From NCBI GenBank assembly GCA_000310025.1, contig FN649731.1, positions 2,948,825 to 3,012,824 of the forward strand: DNA of 64,000 nucleotides, written 5' to 3'. This stretch comes from Ectocarpus siliculosus (Eukaryota > Sar > Phaeophyceae > Ectocarpales > Ectocarpaceae). A program made the translations under genes and the position numbers. The notes beneath the pieces were generated by a model. That model saw only the letters and a program-made list of their open reading frames with translations, had not been told where the DNA came from and did not search any database. Position 1 is the first letter of the stretch; each line of letters starts with the position of its first letter. This document shows positions 9,819-64,000 of this stretch, in pieces.

Positions 9819-9858
<40 letters not shown>

Positions 9859-15531: not shown

Positions 15532-15605
15532 AGCTCCCACGCGGAGTTGAACCACGGACCTTGTGCTTACTAAGCACACGCTCTAACCAACTGAGCTATG
15601 AGAGC
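15532..15605 (-). tRNA. tRNA-Thr (anticodon AGT)
   Basis: The minus strand folds into a full cloverleaf of 74 nt. The acceptor stem is GCTCTCA/TGGGAGC, the D stem GCTC/GAGC with loop AGTTGGTTA, the anticodon stem TGTGC/GCACA with loop TTAGTAA (anticodon AGT), and the T arm CGTGG-TTCAACT-CCGCG. No intron. Poly-T tracts directly downstream on the minus strand fit a Pol III terminator. Anticodon AGT (inosine at the first position) reads Thr codons. Confidence 0.95.
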
Positions 15606-54198: not shown

Positions 54199-54510
54199 AT
54201 GTTCAAGCGGCGGTCATCCAAGGAGCTAAGCGCCAAGATCGGATACGACCATGTCAACGGCAAGGCGTCGAGAAACATGTCCGTGTCTTCCCTGTCCTCG
54301 AGCACCTCCGCCGCCAACAACGCCGTCGCCCCGGTGGCCAGCATCCCGCCCCCCGGCGGCCACCTCCACCACAAGCAGGGCTCTTTCTCGTCCGGCTCGT
54401 CCTCCTACCGAAAAACGACCGGCATGCCCTCTCCCGAGGGCGACAGCGGAGATGACCCGTCCGCCGAGAGGCCCTCCCCGCTAGCGGCGCTCAAGCCGCT
54501 CCCTCCCGCC

Positions 54511-54553
<43 letters not shown>

Positions 54554-54840
54554 TTATCTCGACCAAGGCTCCCAGCAAGGTCAACAAGTCGGCGGCGGCG
54601 GCGCCGAAGGTAGTAGCCGAGCCGCCCTCCAAGAGCCTGGTGATCGGCGAAGGGGTGCTGTTCGAGGGGGCCACGGAAGGTTGCGCGGCGGCCGTGGTTG
54701 GCGGGAAGCTCGTCGGGACGGTCAAGTCCAAGCGGCTGGAGGTGACGAGGGCGGGCAAGATGGAGGGCACGGCGGTCGTTGAGATGGCCGAGATCGCTGG
54801 CACGTTCGAGGGAAACCTCACGGCCACCAAGGCGCTAAAG
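54199..54840 (+). CDS. Bactofilin-like cytoskeletal protein, first exon (partial)
   Basis: Bactofilins are beta-helical proteins that polymerise without nucleotide and are best known as bacterial cytoskeletal scaffolds. This exon encodes 214 residues and ends in phase 0 at AAG|GTGCGT. Residues 1-105 are a Ser-, Pro- and Lys-rich disordered region (MFKRRSSKELSAKIG...). Residues 106-118 are a 13-Gln run from a CAG array. The bactofilin core starts at about 146: SLVIGEGVLFEGATEG, VVGGKLVGTVKSKRLEV, AGKMEGTAVVEMAEI and AGTFEGNLTATKALK. These are the short, Gly-punctuated strands of the family. Only about two thirds of a normal ~100-residue domain is here. The remaining strands must lie in later exons, possibly in the gap at 59668-60006, as none was found. 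Codon use fits the host genes, and the intron and polyQ argue against recent bacterial contamination. Confidence 0.9.
54514..54552. repeat. (CAG)13 coding microsatellite
   Basis: Perfect CAG run encoding the 13-Gln linker of the bactofilin-like protein; likely length-variable. Confidence 0.97.
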
Positions 54841-55756
54841 GTGCGTTCACACTTTCCTACAGTTTTCGCGCGTGCGATGATGATGAAGCAGCAGCAGCAG
54901 GTTTTTTCTCTAGTCTACTGCTGTGGTGATAAAAATTGAATTGATAGTATTTGAGAGGCGAGCGAGGGAGCCCGTTTTGAGCACCCGCGTGCTTCTTCTT
55001 CTTATTTCGCGTCGAGACAAACAACAGCAGCGTGCGCTCACGAGGCGTTTAAGTGCCAACAAACGTGCACAACCAACACAGCAGCACGACGTGTTTATGG
55101 TTTCTTTCCTCTCTACCAGATCTCCTCTTTCTTGTGCCACTGAAAGAAATGACAAACCGCCAGCGGGCTCCGTCCGTGCCCGCCTCAATCATTCTGCGTG
55201 TAATTGTAGCACATTGGAGGTGGCACCAGCATTGCTTCTTGCTCTCTCACGGTGTCAGCGCCTGCTGTCCAGCTGCCCCGTGTCGCGCTTGTTCATCCCT
55301 CCCTACCTCCCGCCCCGGAGACGTAGAAATGACGACGAAGAATTGTTTCAAACTTTAACTTTTGTGGCGAATTGGATCTGCACACAACGTTCCGCCGTCC
55401 GCGTGGAAAAATGTTCCTTCGCCGTGCTACGTGACGCGGTGAGCAGGCCATGACCCCCTTCTGCCCTTTTTCTCAACCGTTTGGGGGCAGCCAAGACTCA
55501 ACCGTTTGGGGGCAGCCAAGACTAGTTTTGCGGACTGCCAATCAATGCCACTGCTACCGGTCGGTGCAGCTGTGCCATCCGTAGGAAAAGCGTCCTCGTC
55601 AACAGCAGCAGCAGCAGAAATTGCGTAGAGGTATCAGGCTGCTTCCAAACGCTGGCTCTCTTGCTTGCTTGCTATAAATTAAGTTTAAATTGATTGCCGA
55701 ACGGCGCCGATGATGACATAAACTTTCCTCTCTCTCTCTCTGATGATGACATAAAC

Positions 55757-55810
<54 letters not shown>

Positions 55811-56808
55811 AGGCGTTTTTTTTTTTTCCTGCTTTAAGTGCCCTGGCCGCCGAGGACCTCTCTCGACCGTAGGCGGAGCCATATTTTGCCGCCAAAAACA
55901 CAACAACCGATGCTTCCCTCCGTATACCTCTCACAACTACTTTTCTGTCCATTGCTGCTGCTGCCGTACCGTGCGCACGGAAATGCGAAGTTTTCGTCCA
56001 CGGCGGGTGCGTGTGTTTGTACAAAGTTTCGCCGATTTCCCATGGTCGTTACAATTGTACAAGTATAACTTCCATGTCTCTCCTCTCTCCTCCTTGCCCG
56101 TCTCCGACTTCTTTTTCTCTTGGTCTGTGGTTGGCAGTTGGCAGTTGGCAGCAGCAGCAGCCGTTTTGTATTTTCTCCATTTGAGAACCATATTGTAGCC
56201 TCTTGCCGAGAGAGGGAGAGAGATGGATGTGTGCATGCATTCGCGCCACACCCCTTTGCTTAGGCGCTGAAATTTGTTAAACGGCAGTAATGGCGAAGAA
56301 AGGGATGATGTGCACAGCAGCTATTTAGCAGTGAAAATAAATCCCATCTCAAACAAACGTCAGGGAAGATGGGAGCTACAGTACTACAAGCAGTACTTGG
56401 CACCAGCTGGTATCACTGATACAAATCTTCATCAGTGTAAGGCTTCAAAAGACTCGAAATAAGAAGTAACTCCAGTACCTGGCCGGTTTTCCTCCACTCA
56501 CTTAAAGACCCCACCACATCCCCTTCGACTGCTGCTGGGGGTATATCTCCCACCGGTAGTATTTTTTTTTTGTTAATATGACACAACGAATCCATCTCTA
56601 TCATAGAAAAAAGTCTGAGACAGATTAGCAATGAATTCATAGCGTCAGTATTTCTATGCGTGTATGTATTTTTCATTTTTCCTACAAGCAGTGTATGTTT
56701 GTACAGCAACAGCGCCCGAACAGCAGTATTTCTATTTTGTTCTTTCCCGCCAGCAGGGGGTGGAAGACTGCAGTAGATCGTTACACACAAAAATCCAGGA
56801 TGTACAAC
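54841..56808. other. Probable intron / intergenic DNA with simple repeats
   Basis: Directly follows the bactofilin donor. A long (CT)n tract occupies about 55757-55807, preceded by a duplicated GATGATGACATAAACTTTCC unit. 56505-56690 holds the fullest copy of a dispersed repeat also seen near 930, 1237, 2600 and 24880. No exon recognised. Confidence 0.5.
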
Positions 56809-57675
56809 GATTACCGTAAACGACGGAGTTTTCCAGCAGTTTTCCCCCGGGGAGTGGATCGTTTTTTTTCTGAAACCAACCCCCCCGGGGGGAAATTGAC
56901 GTACCGCGGGGGGTTAGTTTTTTTCTTTCCAACGCTACCTCGGGGGGAAGCCCCCCCCCGGAGGGTTGTGCAAAAGAATGATGGTCACCATACACACAGA
57001 GAGAGAGTGGCGAAACTGACATGGATAAGGTTCACGAGCAAGCGTTCAACAAGCAGAGGGAGGAGGAACGTAAGAGCAACAAAGACGAAGAGAAAAAAGA
57101 CAGCAAGAGGTATCATTGCCTAAGCTCATGCACAAGAATTCGCAGTTTGTCCGCAGGAATAAGCTGTTTTTATGGTTCGGTTCTACCTTGGGCTGTGAGA
57201 TCCAAAAAAATGAGTATGATTATTTTTTCCCTTTGTGCGCAAGGTTTCGTCAGCATGCTATGGTACGTTTGAGCTGACTCCAGGGATGATAAGTAGTGCG
57301 AGAAATAGACAAGAAAACGAAAGCATTTCACCCATAGAACAACGGCGAGGGCCAAGTGACAAACGGTACACCTAAGTCTCGCTCGAAGCGCAGATCTGCA
57401 AATGAATTTTCCGTCCCATGTCATGCTTTTTGTGCCCCGCGCTGCATTAAAATCGACTCAGAAAATAAGGGAAATACTTCCCCACAGGGGGGAACTCGTG
57501 GGAAACTGGTACCCCGGGGGAAATTGAAATACCAGGGTCTTGTTTTTTTTTTTGTCGAAAACTATCTACCCCGGCGCTAATTCAACGAAACCATGCTTCC
57601 AGGCCGAAAAGGTAATGGGGGTGGGGGAAATCTGTACTAGGGGGGGAAACTCCGTATTATAGTTTACGGTAGTCA
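56809..57675. mobile_element. Candidate TIR element, ~870 bp
   Basis: The left end GATTACCGTAAAC...ACGGAGTTTTCC has an inverted counterpart at the right end, reading GGAAACTCCGTATTATAGTTTACGGTAGTC. Inside each end are similar CCCCGGGG- and GGGGAAATTGA-containing blocks. A 30-codon charged frame at 57021 (MDKVHEQAFNKQREEERKSN) is the only protein-like content. Target-site duplication is not clear. Calling it mobile is an inference from the inverted ends. Confidence 0.55.
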
Positions 57676-59573
57676 GTCGATTGACGGGGGGCACCACCCT
57701 ATCCAGCATCTATCTATCTCCGTTCGTTGTACTTGAAAGTACTGCAGAGTCTACTTCTACATCCTTTTCCCTGGTGTAACTGATCTACACTATTTAGAAC
57801 ATGTCTTCGTTCGTGTTGAACGAGACTCTTAAAGTATTGGGGGGAGCTTCCGTCAGGCACGGCGCGAGACGTTGCGCGACATGTATATGTATCATATGCG
57901 TGGAGAGTGGGCGGTGTTTGGAGGAGAGAAGATCTTGGCACCGACTACAGCAGTATGATAGTCGTCTTCCGATGCTGCCGAAACACATGGTACTGCTGTA
58001 GGTCTTGGCGATGTTCGCGCCGCCGCGCCTGCTTACCATTTTCTCGGCATGGGAGAAGAAGATATGTACTGCGTTGGTATAAATAACCGCGCGGCGAAAA
58101 TTGTCCCCCGGGCGAAACACGCATCATCATCACCGTTCACCCTTTGTGTGTAAATGGACTCCGACTCCGGACGAAAAATACCTGGAACAATGGAGTGAGA
58201 CGCACTGCTGTCCATTCGACCGTATATTATATTCTGCGTGTGATCTACCGACTTCCGTTGTTTACGTGTTGTGTGTTCCTTACACTGCTTATTTGCATTT
58301 CCCATCCCGAAAAAACAGTTCTTCTGGTGTACTATTTGTAGGAACAAGTAACGCGGGACGAAGAGTTTTCTTTTCGTATTTTCCAAATTAAGAAATATAG
58401 TTGTGGAAGAATCAAAATACCGATGGGATTCACTCATGATCACATGATCAATGGTGATCGATGGGCCCGGATGCATTCTGTCATGGCCCCGTCGCTGCAC
58501 TCATTGTGTGATAAAAGTCCTCCGGTTCACGGCAAGCTGCTGAGAATATCATGTTCAGGCAGCGCCATGGCCCCCTCTAGGTTGACCCACGAGCAATGAT
58601 TTTGTTTCTCTTTGTGGCGTGGCGAATGACGAAGAATGAATGCACTGAGCCTCGAGCCTGCAGAGCTCAGCCACACCTAAGAAGGTGGTGCTCATGTGGG
58701 GTGTTCGTCTGGATACTGAAATCAAGTGCTGCAGTGGACATTTAAATCGCAAACTGGCATGCTTATATGTACGTAGAAGGTCGGAAGTCATTTCAGGTGC
58801 CGTTTCAAGCACATCACCGAAGTAAAGTCACAAGACCTCGACGTCTCAAAGCTACTCGTTACTTTTTTACGCATTATTTTGATGCCATGATTTTAACGAA
58901 TTTTAGCACCTTGTGGAGGACACTACTAGGGGTAGAAGTGTTGTATCCATTGGTGCACATACAACAATAGGACGAGGTACGATCTGAGCGGAGTATGATT
59001 GCTCGTCGTTAAGCAACAAGAAACCCTGCTATGGATACGACGCTTCCAAAGCCACCTATGCATAACTACCGAGAAGGGGGTTGGGAGGTCTTCGGTTCTG
59101 GTCTTCGCTCGCTCGTGGAATCCATGGTTGCTTAGCATACGACAGTAGAAAAACACGTGTAACGTTATTCATTTGTCCATGGCTCTAATCTGTGGGTACA
59201 ACAACAGTAGCAGTGGAGATGAATTCGAGGGATTTTCTTCAGAAAAATAACAAGAACAGACCAGGTAACGTTTTTATGTTCACGTACGATGCGAGCGTGT
59301 GTGCTCACGATCCTCCTATATACTGCCCGTGTTGTAGACGGGCATTGTTGGATGTACAACGTGTTGCTTGTTTTTACGACGACACCGCATGACACGTAGA
59401 CTCCCTGCAACGCTTGAGCGCGAGAACACCCGTCTCCTCGTCCTGCCACAAGGGCTCTCGATCACGCAACAGGGATATATTTATGACCAACAAGTGTCGC
59501 ACGATCGTCGGGGGTGATTGCGATAGCCCTCCGTCTCCACACGCAAACCATGCTCTCAACAAAATTTCCACTC
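57676..59573. other. 1.9-kb region, no gene recognised
   Basis: Short frames only (for example 57801-58001 and 58101-58391), none with a recognised feature. Two TACTGCTGTA motifs in opposite orientation at 57946 and 57991 flank a 35-base segment. Confidence 0.35.
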
Positions 59574-59667
59574 GGAGGGCCCCTTGCTCTTATCATGGCT
59601 TACACCGAACGTATTTCGAGGGCGGGCCCCTTGCTCTCACCATGGCTTCAACCGAGCGTACCCCCCC
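59574..59667. repeat. ~46-bp tandem repeat running into the gap
   Basis: Two units containing GGGCCCCTTGCTCT and CATGGCTT-A-CCGA-CGTA run straight into the run of Ns, so the array probably continues through the gap. Confidence 0.85.
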
Positions 59668-60006
59668 NNNNNNNNNNNNNNNNNNNNNNNNNNNNNNNNN
59701 NNNNNNNNNNNNNNNNNNNNNNNNNNNNNNNNNNNNNNNNNNNNNNNNNNNNNNNNNNNNNNNNNNNNNNNNNNNNNNNNNNNNNNNNNNNNNNNNNNNN
59801 NNNNNNNNNNNNNNNNNNNNNNNNNNNNNNNNNNNNNNNNNNNNNNNNNNNNNNNNNNNNNNNNNNNNNNNNNNNNNNNNNNNNNNNNNNNNNNNNNNNN
59901 NNNNNNNNNNNNNNNNNNNNNNNNNNNNNNNNNNNNNNNNNNNNNNNNNNNNNNNNNNNNNNNNNNNNNNNNNNNNNNNNNNNNNNNNNNNNNNNNNNNN
60001 NNNNNN
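59668..60006. other. Assembly gap (339 N)
   Basis: A run of undetermined bases between a C-rich left edge and a G/T-rich right edge. Frames drawn across it are meaningless. Confidence 1.
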
Positions 60007-61165
60007 GGGTTTTTCCGGGTGGTTTGGGGGGGGGGGTACGGGGCGTGCTTTGCGAGGGGTGGTCTAGGGGGTCAAAAGTGGTCTCTTCGCGTCCTGATAT
60101 AGGATGCACAGCAGCCAGTGCAGCGGGAAAAAACTCTTGTTTGCTGTTCGATTTCCAGAAGGGGAGCAACAGTCAAGATTGGTAGGTGAGATCGGTTGGA
60201 CGATCGAAACATGTAGCGACGTCACGCCTCGCCCATAGCTGCAACCCCCGTTGCCGTGTGTGCGCTGTTTTAGCAGAGTGTGGGTTTAGTCGTTAATTTA
60301 AGTGATGATAATTTCTGTTTTGTTTTTTTTTACTTACGGTAAGTTTGTTTTTTGGGCTGTATCCATCCCGTACACACGGGCGACAAAAGAAAAAGGGGTC
60401 TGTGGCTCAGCAACTGATTATTATGTGATGAGAGAGCTAGGGAGTGGTGTATAATGGCTTTCTTGTCTCAGGTTCCAAGTTGTCCTCCCTCGTCTTTCGT
60501 CGGTCGTATTTTTGTTGTGGTCGGTTTCTGTCCCCTGTCCCCGCGTCGGCATTGCGACAGACCGACTGCCTCCAGCTGTTGAAAACCGTGTTTTTTCTTG
60601 TGCGTCTGAGTGCTAGAGTTGTGTGTGTTTTTTTCACGAACGAACACGAAAATGGAGGCAGGTTCGTTCACCTCCTCCTTGAATCCATTCTCATCCGTGA
60701 AGAAGAAGAAACGAAGCCAGGGTTGTGTATCGGCGATGTGTCTTGGTTGTGCTTTCTTTGGCCTTCTTGATTCGATACTTAATACTACCATACGTGTCTT
60801 GTGCCGTCGTCATTTTACGTCTTGGTTTCGCCTTCTTTCTATCTATTTGTATGTGTCCACGGCTTTTCTTGTAGAGGGGAAGAGAGCCACACTGCATGGC
60901 ACAGCAACGGGCAGCAGGCAGGAAGACACACGGGCAAACTAAGAACGAAAACAGAAAATCTGGTAGCTGTTATGCAACGTTTGTCGCTGCTGGCTGCAGT
61001 TGTTGATGATGATGGTATGCTTTGGTTGTATCTGGGTTGTTCCAGGTATGTAGGCTTGCCTGGCACAGCTTTTTTTTTGTTCGGGCGTGAGTGCGCACTC
61101 CTCTCTTTTCTGTTCTCTATCAAATGATGGCAAGCATCACATCATCGGCGAATGAACTACGATTC

Positions 61166-61204
<39 letters not shown>

Positions 61205-62702
61205 AGGAAGCAGAGGTTGAGCGCATGGATGTATGCCTGCCGCGATTTTGAGAGCCATATTTTTCCTTCATCTCCCGTATTCGGAGAGAGTATTTTTCTA
61301 TCCTATTCTTCTGTGTGACGAGAAGCATGTGCCTGTATCTGTACAGAGTTGTGACTGTGCCTGGAGGGGAGAGGTCAGGCTGTGGAGATGCTGTTGGTTG
61401 AACGTAAAGGGCCCGATAACCATCTCTGCACGCGCCCTGCATTGATTTATCGTGCATCAGAGAGCTACGGAGTGAAGTAGACCGCGGCGGGGAGACGGGG
61501 CATGTTTGGAAAGCATGGGCATTCATTCACTGTTGGTCGCTAAAATCGAGGCTTCCTTTTCCTTGCCTTGCGCTTTTCTGATCTGTTGCCCTATGCATAC
61601 TCCGACGTGTTTGTCTCTATCCTTCCTCACGTGGCTGGCGGGGAGCGGGTACACTTACCGCTGAAAGCGATAGCCCCAGCCATCCCATCGTGGTTTGTTG
61701 AGTTTTTTCTCGATGTACTAATACGACATAGCAGCAGGCAGGCTGTCTGTGTAGTACGTCGGCTACGGCAAGAGCTAGCTGTACTACAGCAGTATGTTTA
61801 TGCGGAATCGAGGAATCGTGGTTTTGAGAGTGTGAGTTTGAAGGGAGAAGGGGAATAGTAGCCTACGGTATGAATGCATGTCTTTGTTTTTCGTCGTCGG
61901 TGAAGTGCGGCGAACGTAAGCATACCGTACTTGCTCATGGAGGGAGGGGCGGGGGGGATCGAGCGTTGGCCGTTGGGCCGTGTTGTAGATTAATTGTTTT
62001 TTAGGCGGTGTCTTCTTTCGCTACGAAAGTTCCGAGTATTGGGACCGGCAGGGGAAGGATATCATAAGATTATCTTGTTTCTTTATGCATACGTATTATA
62101 ATGTTGTCTTTCATGTGTAGTATGCATAATAGGTGGATACAGCAGCAGTTGGTTGGCGTGGTCCTGAGCTGGTGCAGGTTTTGTGTGCGTCAGTGGCCGG
62201 TGGGACACGCTTAGTTTGTTGGTGTATAGGGGCAGTAGTCATCGATAGATGATATCTTGGCCACCTTTCAGTTATGTTCCCTTCTGTCGTCGGTGTCCAT
62301 GTGATGACAGCAGCAGTCGCGCCACGCACCACACGCTGCCTGATACAATGGAGCGGACTGCGCTTTTTTTTTTGTTCGTCGTCGTATACATTATAACAAT
62401 ATAATGATTCGTCGTTTTTTTTTTTTTTTTCTCGAGTTATTACGTCGTCTTCTCCTTGTCCCGCCATATTCCGCGTACACTGGTCTGTTTGCGGCTGGCT
62501 ACCACCTAGAAATGATTTTTTGTATGGTCTAGCATACATTGCGACGATGGTTTTCTTGGTAGAGTTTGTTCATTTTGAGAAAGAGAGAGACGAAAGGCAG
62601 AGAGAATTCAATGATTTGATATTTTTAGGCAGAGTGGGGATGATAATATTTATTTGTTGAGAGTTTTCTTTCGCTTTTTCTCATTTTGTTGTGCGCGTGC
62701 AG
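60007..62702. other. 2.7-kb region, mostly AT-richer non-coding DNA
   Basis: A (GA)n tract lies at about 61167-61203 and poly-T runs at 60325, 62367 and 62417. Frames at 60610-60942 and 61568-61858 show no domain. No gene supported. Confidence 0.45.
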
Positions 62703-62848
62703 GTGCGCAGCTGGGTGACCCTGTGACCCTGTTCTCTGATAATGATGAGAGCATTGCGTTCTTCGATGCGCGTTCTTCGATGAACGCCGATCGTCCGTCG
62801 CGTAAACCGGCTGACCAACAAACGCAGAACAATCAAGTCTTGGTTTGA
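62703..62848 (+). CDS. Probable terminal coding exon, unknown protein
   Basis: After a CAG acceptor (GTGCGCGTGCAG) the frame reads AQLGDPVTLFSDNDESIAFF, then DARSSMNADRPSRKPADQQT and ends QNNQVLV-stop. It is hydrophilic and Asn/Asp/Ser-rich, typical of a C-terminal tail, and unlike the surrounding DNA. It enters in phase 1 if the first AG is used (62701-62702) or phase 0 with the AG at 62709-62710. It could belong to the bactofilin-like gene, which is on the same strand and lacks its end, but nothing proves that. Confidence 0.45.
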
Positions 62849-64000
62849 AGAGGACGAACAATCAACCAATCACCGTCGTCGAGCTCGTGCGTTTCTGCGA
62901 GAAAAGCGAAGACGGTGTTCGGTCAGGTGTTGATTGTAGGTTCCCTTTGTCGTACATGTAAGGCATCAAATCAAATCGCCGAGTCATTCGTCGTGTGTAT
63001 CAACAGAGGGAGGTCCTGCCTGTCCTCAATGCGTTTTTCTTGTGCAGGCACGGCATGCTCTTGTCGGCAGGAGGTGATGGTTGGCATGAGGCAAATAAAG
63101 CCACGTCCTTCACTTCCTCCTTCGTGCGGTTGCTATGCATTGCATGCTCGTTGCAACAACAGTGGTGGAGGGCCCGGTGTCAGCGCCCCCCCCCCCCCTT
63201 GTTTAGCGAGATAGATGCTCTGCAAGACGGCCACAGAATCGCGTAGCGACCGCCACACGCCCAACAGACCAATAGCCGCTAAATAATAACGGCAAACGAT
63301 AATAACAGCGTCTCACCACGAAACATGGGGGGACTGTCGCCGTAATAAATAATGGGATGAACAAAACAACATTTTGAGTAGCGACGGCCATGCTCCCCCT
63401 CCTGCCACTAATTAGGGGTCCCAACCTACACCGTGACGGCCTATACTCGGGGGAGGCGGCCGATGAGTCAGTCTCCTCCTCGAGCAAGAGAGCCAGCCCT
63501 GATTCATCAGCATTGCTTCATCATGACCCTTGCTCTTGCCTTGCTTGGATCGTTTGCTTGCTTGCCCTGACCTTGAAACGCGACCCAACAACACCAACAA
63601 GGCGCTCGCTCACCACAACCAACCGTCTCTGCTTCTGAACCGCATCTTGCAACTTGGGGCAGCAAACGGGAGTCTTTCTTGGTATTGCGTAGCGGGACGA
63701 AGGGAGCACAAACAGGCCAAGTCAATCATTCGGAGAACAAAGCACCGGCTCGCTCGCAAGACCTTTCGTCGCATCGGCTAGCTAGCTAGATGGTCCACGT
63801 AGAAGAAGAGAGATAACTTGTCAGCGTTAAAACTCATCACACGAAAACACGAAATCAACCCCGAGTGGGAATGACAAGCCCAGAGCGCCACATCTTCGCC
63901 ACCAGCTTGAGGTGAGATTGAGTTTAACGTTGTGGTTCCGGTGAGCGGGCCGGCACTCTATCTCTGTACAATAGTATACTGCTGGCGTCGTGCAGCCGCT
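62849..64000. other. Right end of window, nothing firm
   Basis: Includes a poly-C run near 63187-63199. A short plus frame (63390-63638) includes a Ser-rich stretch (ADESVSSSSKRASPDSSALL) but has no splice context. No gene called. Confidence 0.4.

Follow-up and report, generated by a model that had tools for sequence, protein, structure and literature searches.

A bactofilin gene family in the brown alga Ectocarpus siliculosus, with a likely membrane-targeting start

The window, a 64,000-nucleotide stretch of the genome of Ectocarpus siliculosus, contains an exon that encodes two thirds of a bactofilin core, and this exon belongs to an established eukaryotic bactofilin family and not to contaminating DNA. 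The best explanation, to which we assign a probability of roughly 55%, is that an intron-split nuclear gene, probably expressed, encodes a scaffold that polymerises by itself and is tethered to a membrane, with a long disordered arm. What was observed here comprises the domain match, the bacterial subgroup to which the core appears closest, the motif at the N-terminus, the family of paralogs and the shared introns. The features of the exon and of the DNA adjoining it were as follows.

54199–54840, + strand: first coding exon identified for the bactofilin gene, spanning 214 codons (an open frame with a GC3 of 0.88, a PF04519 match and a GT at 54841).
54199–54222, + strand: putative N-terminal membrane-targeting sequence MFKRRSSK (likeness to bacterial MF-basic starts).
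54223–54630, + strand: probably disordered linker, aa 9–144, rich in Ser, Ala, Pro and Gln (composition, Kyte-Doolittle).
54514–54552, + strand: (CAG)13 encoding Gln13, aa 106–118, pure CAG (read from the sequence).
54631–54840, + strand: N-terminal two thirds of the bactofilin domain, aa 145–214 (PF04519 and subgroup-profile matches).
54841–54846, + strand: candidate 5' splice site GTGCGT, phase 0, adjoining Pfam position 68 (the exon of paralog C14, with a putative donor of its own, ends at the equal profile position and phase).
54841–59667, + strand: putative intron, at least this long (profile searches, regular expressions and an acceptor scan gave no C-terminal exon).

The frame of the ATG at 54199 was open from 54091, and the GC content of the exon at codon positions 1, 2 and 3 (0.61, 0.51 and 0.88) resembled that of coding DNA. 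The start codon, the 214 open codons, the run of 13 Gln and the donor-like GTGCGT at 54841 were as the original prediction had described them. The predicted protein consisted of three parts, namely the start MFKRRSSK, a linker to residue 144, and the core at residues 145–214. A bactofilin core had been proposed for residues 146–214, and the HMM search bore this out with a PF04519 (Bactofilin) match at aa 148–213 (E 1.5e-8, 35.3 bits, cut-off 27.9); the same exon scored 41.8 bits (E 1.8e-8) in a whole-genome PF04519 search. The exon reached profile positions 2–68 of 98 only, leaving the core incomplete. On a profile of 22 bacterial rows from a subgroup that we label AEIxGxFEG, the 70-aa core scored 49.1 bits and the best shuffle 13.8 (2000 made, 1987 scored), which is far from chance. 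A profile of the subgroup that included the window core (A3) matched two bacterial structures of the same domain family, Caulobacter crescentus BacA (2n3d; E 6.5e-7) and the Thermus thermophilus bactofilin (6ria; E 2.3e-4), the latter (6ria/6rib) serving as the filament model; the direct phmmer match to BacA was weak (E 0.0038). A TFIIA match at aa 10–133 (E 0.0042) was rejected, as it scored 17.5 bits against a cut-off of 36.2 and sat on the low-complexity linker.

The window lies within a 3.9 Mb contig of a 189 Mb genome in which the chlorophyll-binding family PF00504 gave 87 matches (counted per exon), so that it is that of a photosynthetic eukaryote; its size, its GC content and its CAG-rich DNA would suit a brown alga. 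Contigs C92, C232 and C488 carried many equal-scoring PF00504 matches, C92 alone at least ten, a few to tens of kilobases apart, reflecting either a gene array that was amplified recently or redundancy in the assembly. Searching the whole genome with PF04519 alone gave seven bactofilin matches at six loci, to which the bacterial query L028 added C7 at 369 kb (E 0.0013), C14 (0.003), an upstream exon on C2 (0.23) and C7 at 362 kb (0.56); matches on C52 (0.79, with an internal stop; L028 query) and C5 (0.037; C23 query) were left uncounted. At least nine bactofilin loci were present (C6, which is the window, C2, C4, C7a, C7b, C14, C23, C24, and C30). Seven exceeded the Pfam cut-off, the window and C24 by themselves and C2, C23, C30, C7b and C4 as joined exons, while C14 (20.3 bits) and C7a (19.6 bits) were single exons below it. 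The gene on C2 was complete, with GT-AG introns and a product covering profile positions 2–97.

L009 376–5189 (C2:7015875–7020688): complete C2 bactofilin paralog, three exons, 218 aa (exons and GT-AG introns read).

For expression work this paralog is a better choice than the gene in the window. A GT-AG intron could be read on both sides in five loci (C2, C4, C7b, C23, and C30). The window exon (GTFEGNLTATKALK) and the C14 exon (GRLHGTLSASTLLE) both ended in phase 0 at Pfam position 68 and appear to share an intron site, a correspondence based on the Pfam profile and motif spacing, with donors assigned by the analyst. A second site, in phase 1 near position 40, was common to C2, C7a, C7b, and C30. 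Aligned directly, the window protein and the C14 exon were out of register and not matched end-to-end (E 0.02 over 16 residues), too weakly to confirm the common site; the best alignment of this protein to C2 (E 4e-4) was likewise out of register and not end-to-end. Shared intron sites suggest that duplication occurred after the introns had been gained. The original prediction of an old rather than recent acquisition agrees with the presence of at least nine divergent intron-bearing loci and with the intron site seemingly common to the window exon and a paralog. It had also described an intron-containing nuclear gene; the gene is indeed a nuclear gene of a eukaryote, while its intron is indicated by the donor-like site and by the paralogs, later exons not having been found.

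Bacterial relatives of the core were abundant. With E values up to 10, a plasmid search returned three records, among them an annotated bactofilin from Comamonas (E 4e-4), which was aligned with the window core (alignment A2) and run on the genome collection. At least 591 stretches matched the pattern; among the matches listed, 370 encode relatives, and the best 80 of these 370 were kept. By their titles all 80 belonged to alpha- or betaproteobacteria, or to unplaced Proteobacteria/Pseudomonadota, in a list biased by seeding with the subgroup; the genera are ones that we take to be alpha- or betaproteobacterial. In an even draw of 398 genomes from the phylum of L028 (its own genome included), 36 matched the window core at E 0.001. 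The window core was 31–45% identical to nine alphaproteobacterial relatives among the best 80, and 36–43% identical to the alphaproteobacterial AEIxGxFEG bactofilins L025, L028, L031, and L048, with AEIAGTFEG common to both sides.

Phylogenetic analysis of 61 rows grouped the window core with the 22 bacterial AEIxGxFEG rows (support 99/89), nearest by path to L028 and L025, on a very long branch (2.61); without the window row the 22 bacteria already formed a group (55/0). When the window's own columns were used, a 55-row tree placed the 22 rows, the window and C2 together (98/94), with few columns and with C23, C24, C4, L124, L187, and L184 left out. Profile scores (subgroup/canonical, in bits) leaned to the subgroup for the window (49/31; exactly 49.1 and 31.1 for its core), C7b (44/25), C14 (34/17), C7a (29/14), and C2 (58/53), and to canonical bactofilins for C23 (30/66), C24 (16/46), and C4 (33/52); for C30 they were 25/27 in the main exon and 5.8/10.8 in the first exon. 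C23, C24 and C4 formed another algal group, placed among canonical bactofilins, in the 61-row tree (99/84). In AU tests, a window row outside the 22 subgroup bacteria and C2 was not rejected (p 0.434), and a clade of the window and C2 was equally good (p 0.513). Two separate acquisitions are not claimed, since a single clade of the five algal genes tested was not rejected either (p 0.107), the free two-type tree being 22.3 log-likelihood units better. The core appears, from its sequence, to group with the proteobacterial AEIxGxFEG subgroup rather than with canonical bactofilins, and the window row may sit within that subgroup, next to it or apart from it. A phylogeny against bacterial homologues had been proposed with the original prediction; it gave this grouping (99/89, 98/94), in line with bacterial-type ancestry, at a placement made uncertain by the AU result, the long branch and the seeded sampling.

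Three scans of viral contigs, with the exon core, A2 and a C23-type alignment, found no relative, and the best match among phages had an E of 9. Because the scans did not recover the bactofilin that one study reports in Imitevirales giant viruses (PMC12192438), they are weak evidence either way on a virus route. Two proteobacterial contigs (C28 and C29 of G016) carried very long frames (1751 and 964 aa) in which some stretches resemble bactofilin weakly, including four on C29.

The first eight residues may be a second bacterial trait. According to a study of bacterial bactofilins, the C. crescentus BacA peptide MFSKQAKS binds the membrane via two hydrophobic residues and two lysines, and the global bacterial consensus of the membrane-targeting start, compiled with non-bacterial entries left out, is MFSKKKK (PMC12448750). 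The algal protein starts with MFKRRSSKELS, 147 residues before the core, and so has by sequence likeness alone the N-terminal MF and following basic residues of membrane-targeted bactofilins. Among 28 bacterial subgroup proteins, comprising the 22 tree rows and six more alphaproteobacterial proteins picked by hand, 16 had MF[RG][RK] in frame 58–129 residues upstream of the core; the 12 that lacked it included L014, L015, L020, L024, L037, L043, and L060, six of these seven being betaproteobacterial. The start MFRRKSSD of L025 and L048 compares with the algal MFKRRSSK. The looser MFx[KR] occurred upstream of the core in 19 of the best 80 relatives, seven of them alphaproteobacterial with MFRRK and 12 others with MFNK or MFSK, and in 9 of 30 canonical rows (L152–L181). 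An MFRRK-type start was thus carried by seven of the nine alphaproteobacterial relatives and absent in L030 and L067. L025, L028, L031, and L048 all combine it with a tail of 75–78 residues before the core, whereas the alga has putative introns, 147 residues including Gln13, and a C-terminal part that was not found. MFKRRSSK seems to be a retained membrane-targeting sequence, and would in that case support 54199 as the true start.

An unlikely alternative is a genuine bactofilin of mitochondrial ancestry or address, derived by transfer from the endosymbiont and imported into mitochondria. The nearest rows by path, L028 and L025, are alphaproteobacterial and the N-terminus is basic, as would be expected. 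However, the helical hydrophobic moment of aa 1–18 was only 0.12 and strongly hydrophobic stretches were lacking; both speak against a mitochondrial helix or a signal peptide. The moment is a crude test, by which the L025 start scores 0.40. The likeness of the start to those of bacterial proteins also speaks against it, as do the unsettled placement of the window row and the sampling seeded with the subgroup.

The rest of the core was sought downstream. Neither a subgroup profile, C-terminal profiles, regular expressions nor an acceptor-anchored matrix scan gave anything above controls in the window from 54841 (from 54001 for one search) and the next 10 kb (L013), 19 kb in total, so that the C-terminal exon was not found there. 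The best acceptor scan score was 8.1, compared with 7.3 on the reverse strand and 5.9–17.2 for the best of each of ten shuffles. The C-terminal profile recovered the exons of C2, C7b and C30, a circular control as all three were in its model, and the C4 exon, outside the model, reached only E 0.04. Two features followed.

59668–60006, no strand: run of N, 339 b, an assembly gap or withheld stretch and candidate site of the last exon.
60007–63000, + strand: G+T-rich stretch, 0.57–0.62 per 500 b, possible 3' untranslated region of the bactofilin gene (composition).

The N run is the best guess for where the last exon lies, and the support for it is modest. A direct repeat of 40 nt (85% identical, spacing 47) was seen just before the N run at 59574–59660, and the gap may stem from a longer tandem array. 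The 95th percentile of G+T in the window was 0.59; G+T was 0.55–0.60 for 2 kb past the stop of C2, and C23 had no such enrichment (0.41–0.57). G+T-rich stretches of this kind may mark 3' untranslated regions in the Ectocarpus genome.

These searches bear on another reading, that the gene is decaying or truncated, having lost its C-terminal exon, and that the exon is a relic or encodes a short protein unable to polymerise. The lack of a C-terminal exon in the 19 kb favours it, as does the read-through past 54840, in which a stop at 54937 follows 32 unrelated residues. Against this are the 214 open codons with a coding signature, a donor-like site that coincides with the end of C14 on the profile, and the 339-b N run, which could hold the exon. 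We consider truncation as improbable as the mitochondrial alternative.

Quite improbable, too, is that the domain has a general role in the cytosol or the nucleus as a beta-helical module for interactions, and that the basic N-terminus resembles the bacterial starts by chance. The motif is short and the pattern was set after it had been seen, and 61 of the best 80 relatives lacked MFx[KR]. Yet the strict pattern MF[KRG][KR][KR] occurred in only one of 2967 stop-free ATG-led 9-mers from 11 algal stretches, the MFKRRSSK start itself, and F2 with at least three basic residues at positions 3–8 occurred in four; the C2 product, which starts with MLQSKRRSFSRK, also has a hydrophobic-basic start.

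In the linker, disorder-promoting residues made up 71% of aa 9–143, and over the first 114 aa of the protein the Kyte-Doolittle mean per 15 residues peaked at 0.73. The polyglutamine run of the linker was set aside as a special feature, as CAG/CTG runs of at least 12 number three in the 64 kb, and it is an ordinary CAG microsatellite; its length may be variable and nothing points to a function. The other two runs, both (CTG)12, lie at 9821 and 35719. The suggestion that the protein was adapted to eukaryotic regulation through a long disordered N-terminus found no support, as bacterial MF[RG][RK] proteins also have 58–129 residues where the alga has 147, and the first eight algal residues resemble a bacterial membrane-targeting peptide. 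It is the N-terminal peptide, not the polyglutamine, that merits a second look. Elsewhere in the window were a tRNA gene (15532–15605, − strand, Rfam 63.6 bits) and ten long frames, of 45 listed, without a Pfam match at E 0.01.

A bolder reading, which we regard as very doubtful, is that a membrane-bound cytoskeleton came from alphaproteobacteria, perhaps as early as the mitochondrial endosymbiont or else by an early stramenopile transfer, was kept, was duplicated (at least nine loci of two types), was lengthened by a polyglutamine arm, and now organises membrane in an alga without a bacterial peptidoglycan wall. Bacterial contamination of the assembly is practically ruled out, for although all matches outside the Ectocarpus genome were bacterial, in collections searched without eukaryotes, the window lies inside a 3.9 Mb contig and GT-AG introns interrupt members of the family, in some cases at common positions.

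The preferred reading, a membrane-tethered scaffold, would work as follows, with fold, polymerisation, membrane binding and client recruitment carried over from bacterial work. The protein start would anchor to the membrane, M1 and F2 entering the lipid core and K3, R4, R5, and K8 lying on acidic headgroups, and the long flexible arm would link this anchor to the beta-helical core. Needing no nucleotide, the cores would join end to end into non-polar filaments, and the product may therefore act as a passive membrane-bound scaffold gathering client proteins. In bacterial bactofilins, membrane binding and polymerisation are described as reinforcing each other and recruiting clients in one paper (PMC12448750), and filaments as non-polar with N-to-N and C-to-C contacts, location being affected by flanking disordered parts, in another (PMC12364344). 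Counting against this explanation, the last third of the core, the site of the bacterial C-to-C contact, was not found; a hydrophobic residue equivalent to C. crescentus F130, which makes this contact, is expected in that part.

No paper joining bactofilin with Ectocarpus or with an oomycete was found in the literature searched, and where bactofilin and a brown alga occurred together the alga was mentioned for alginate only. The abstract of Deng et al. 2019 is reported to mention oomycetes. Some bactofilins are noted in eukaryotic stramenopiles, citing Deng et al. 2019, in a further paper (PMC9448923); these possibly belong to the same lineage. Eukaryotic bactofilins of stramenopiles are therefore already in print and the kind is known, while the literature searched was not seen to describe how large the family is, its relation to the subgroup, the introns in common or the probable membrane-targeting start.

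Many bacterial bactofilins act in morphogenesis via peptidoglycan synthesis, as outlined in one study (PMC12364344). The Ectocarpus family offers a concrete case that can be tested by localisation, filament formation and knockout, a CRISPR method being reported for brown algae (PMC12853178). If the preferred reading is true, a eukaryote without a peptidoglycan wall has kept a bactofilin family, which would mean that the filament-on-membrane module is workable with other clients.
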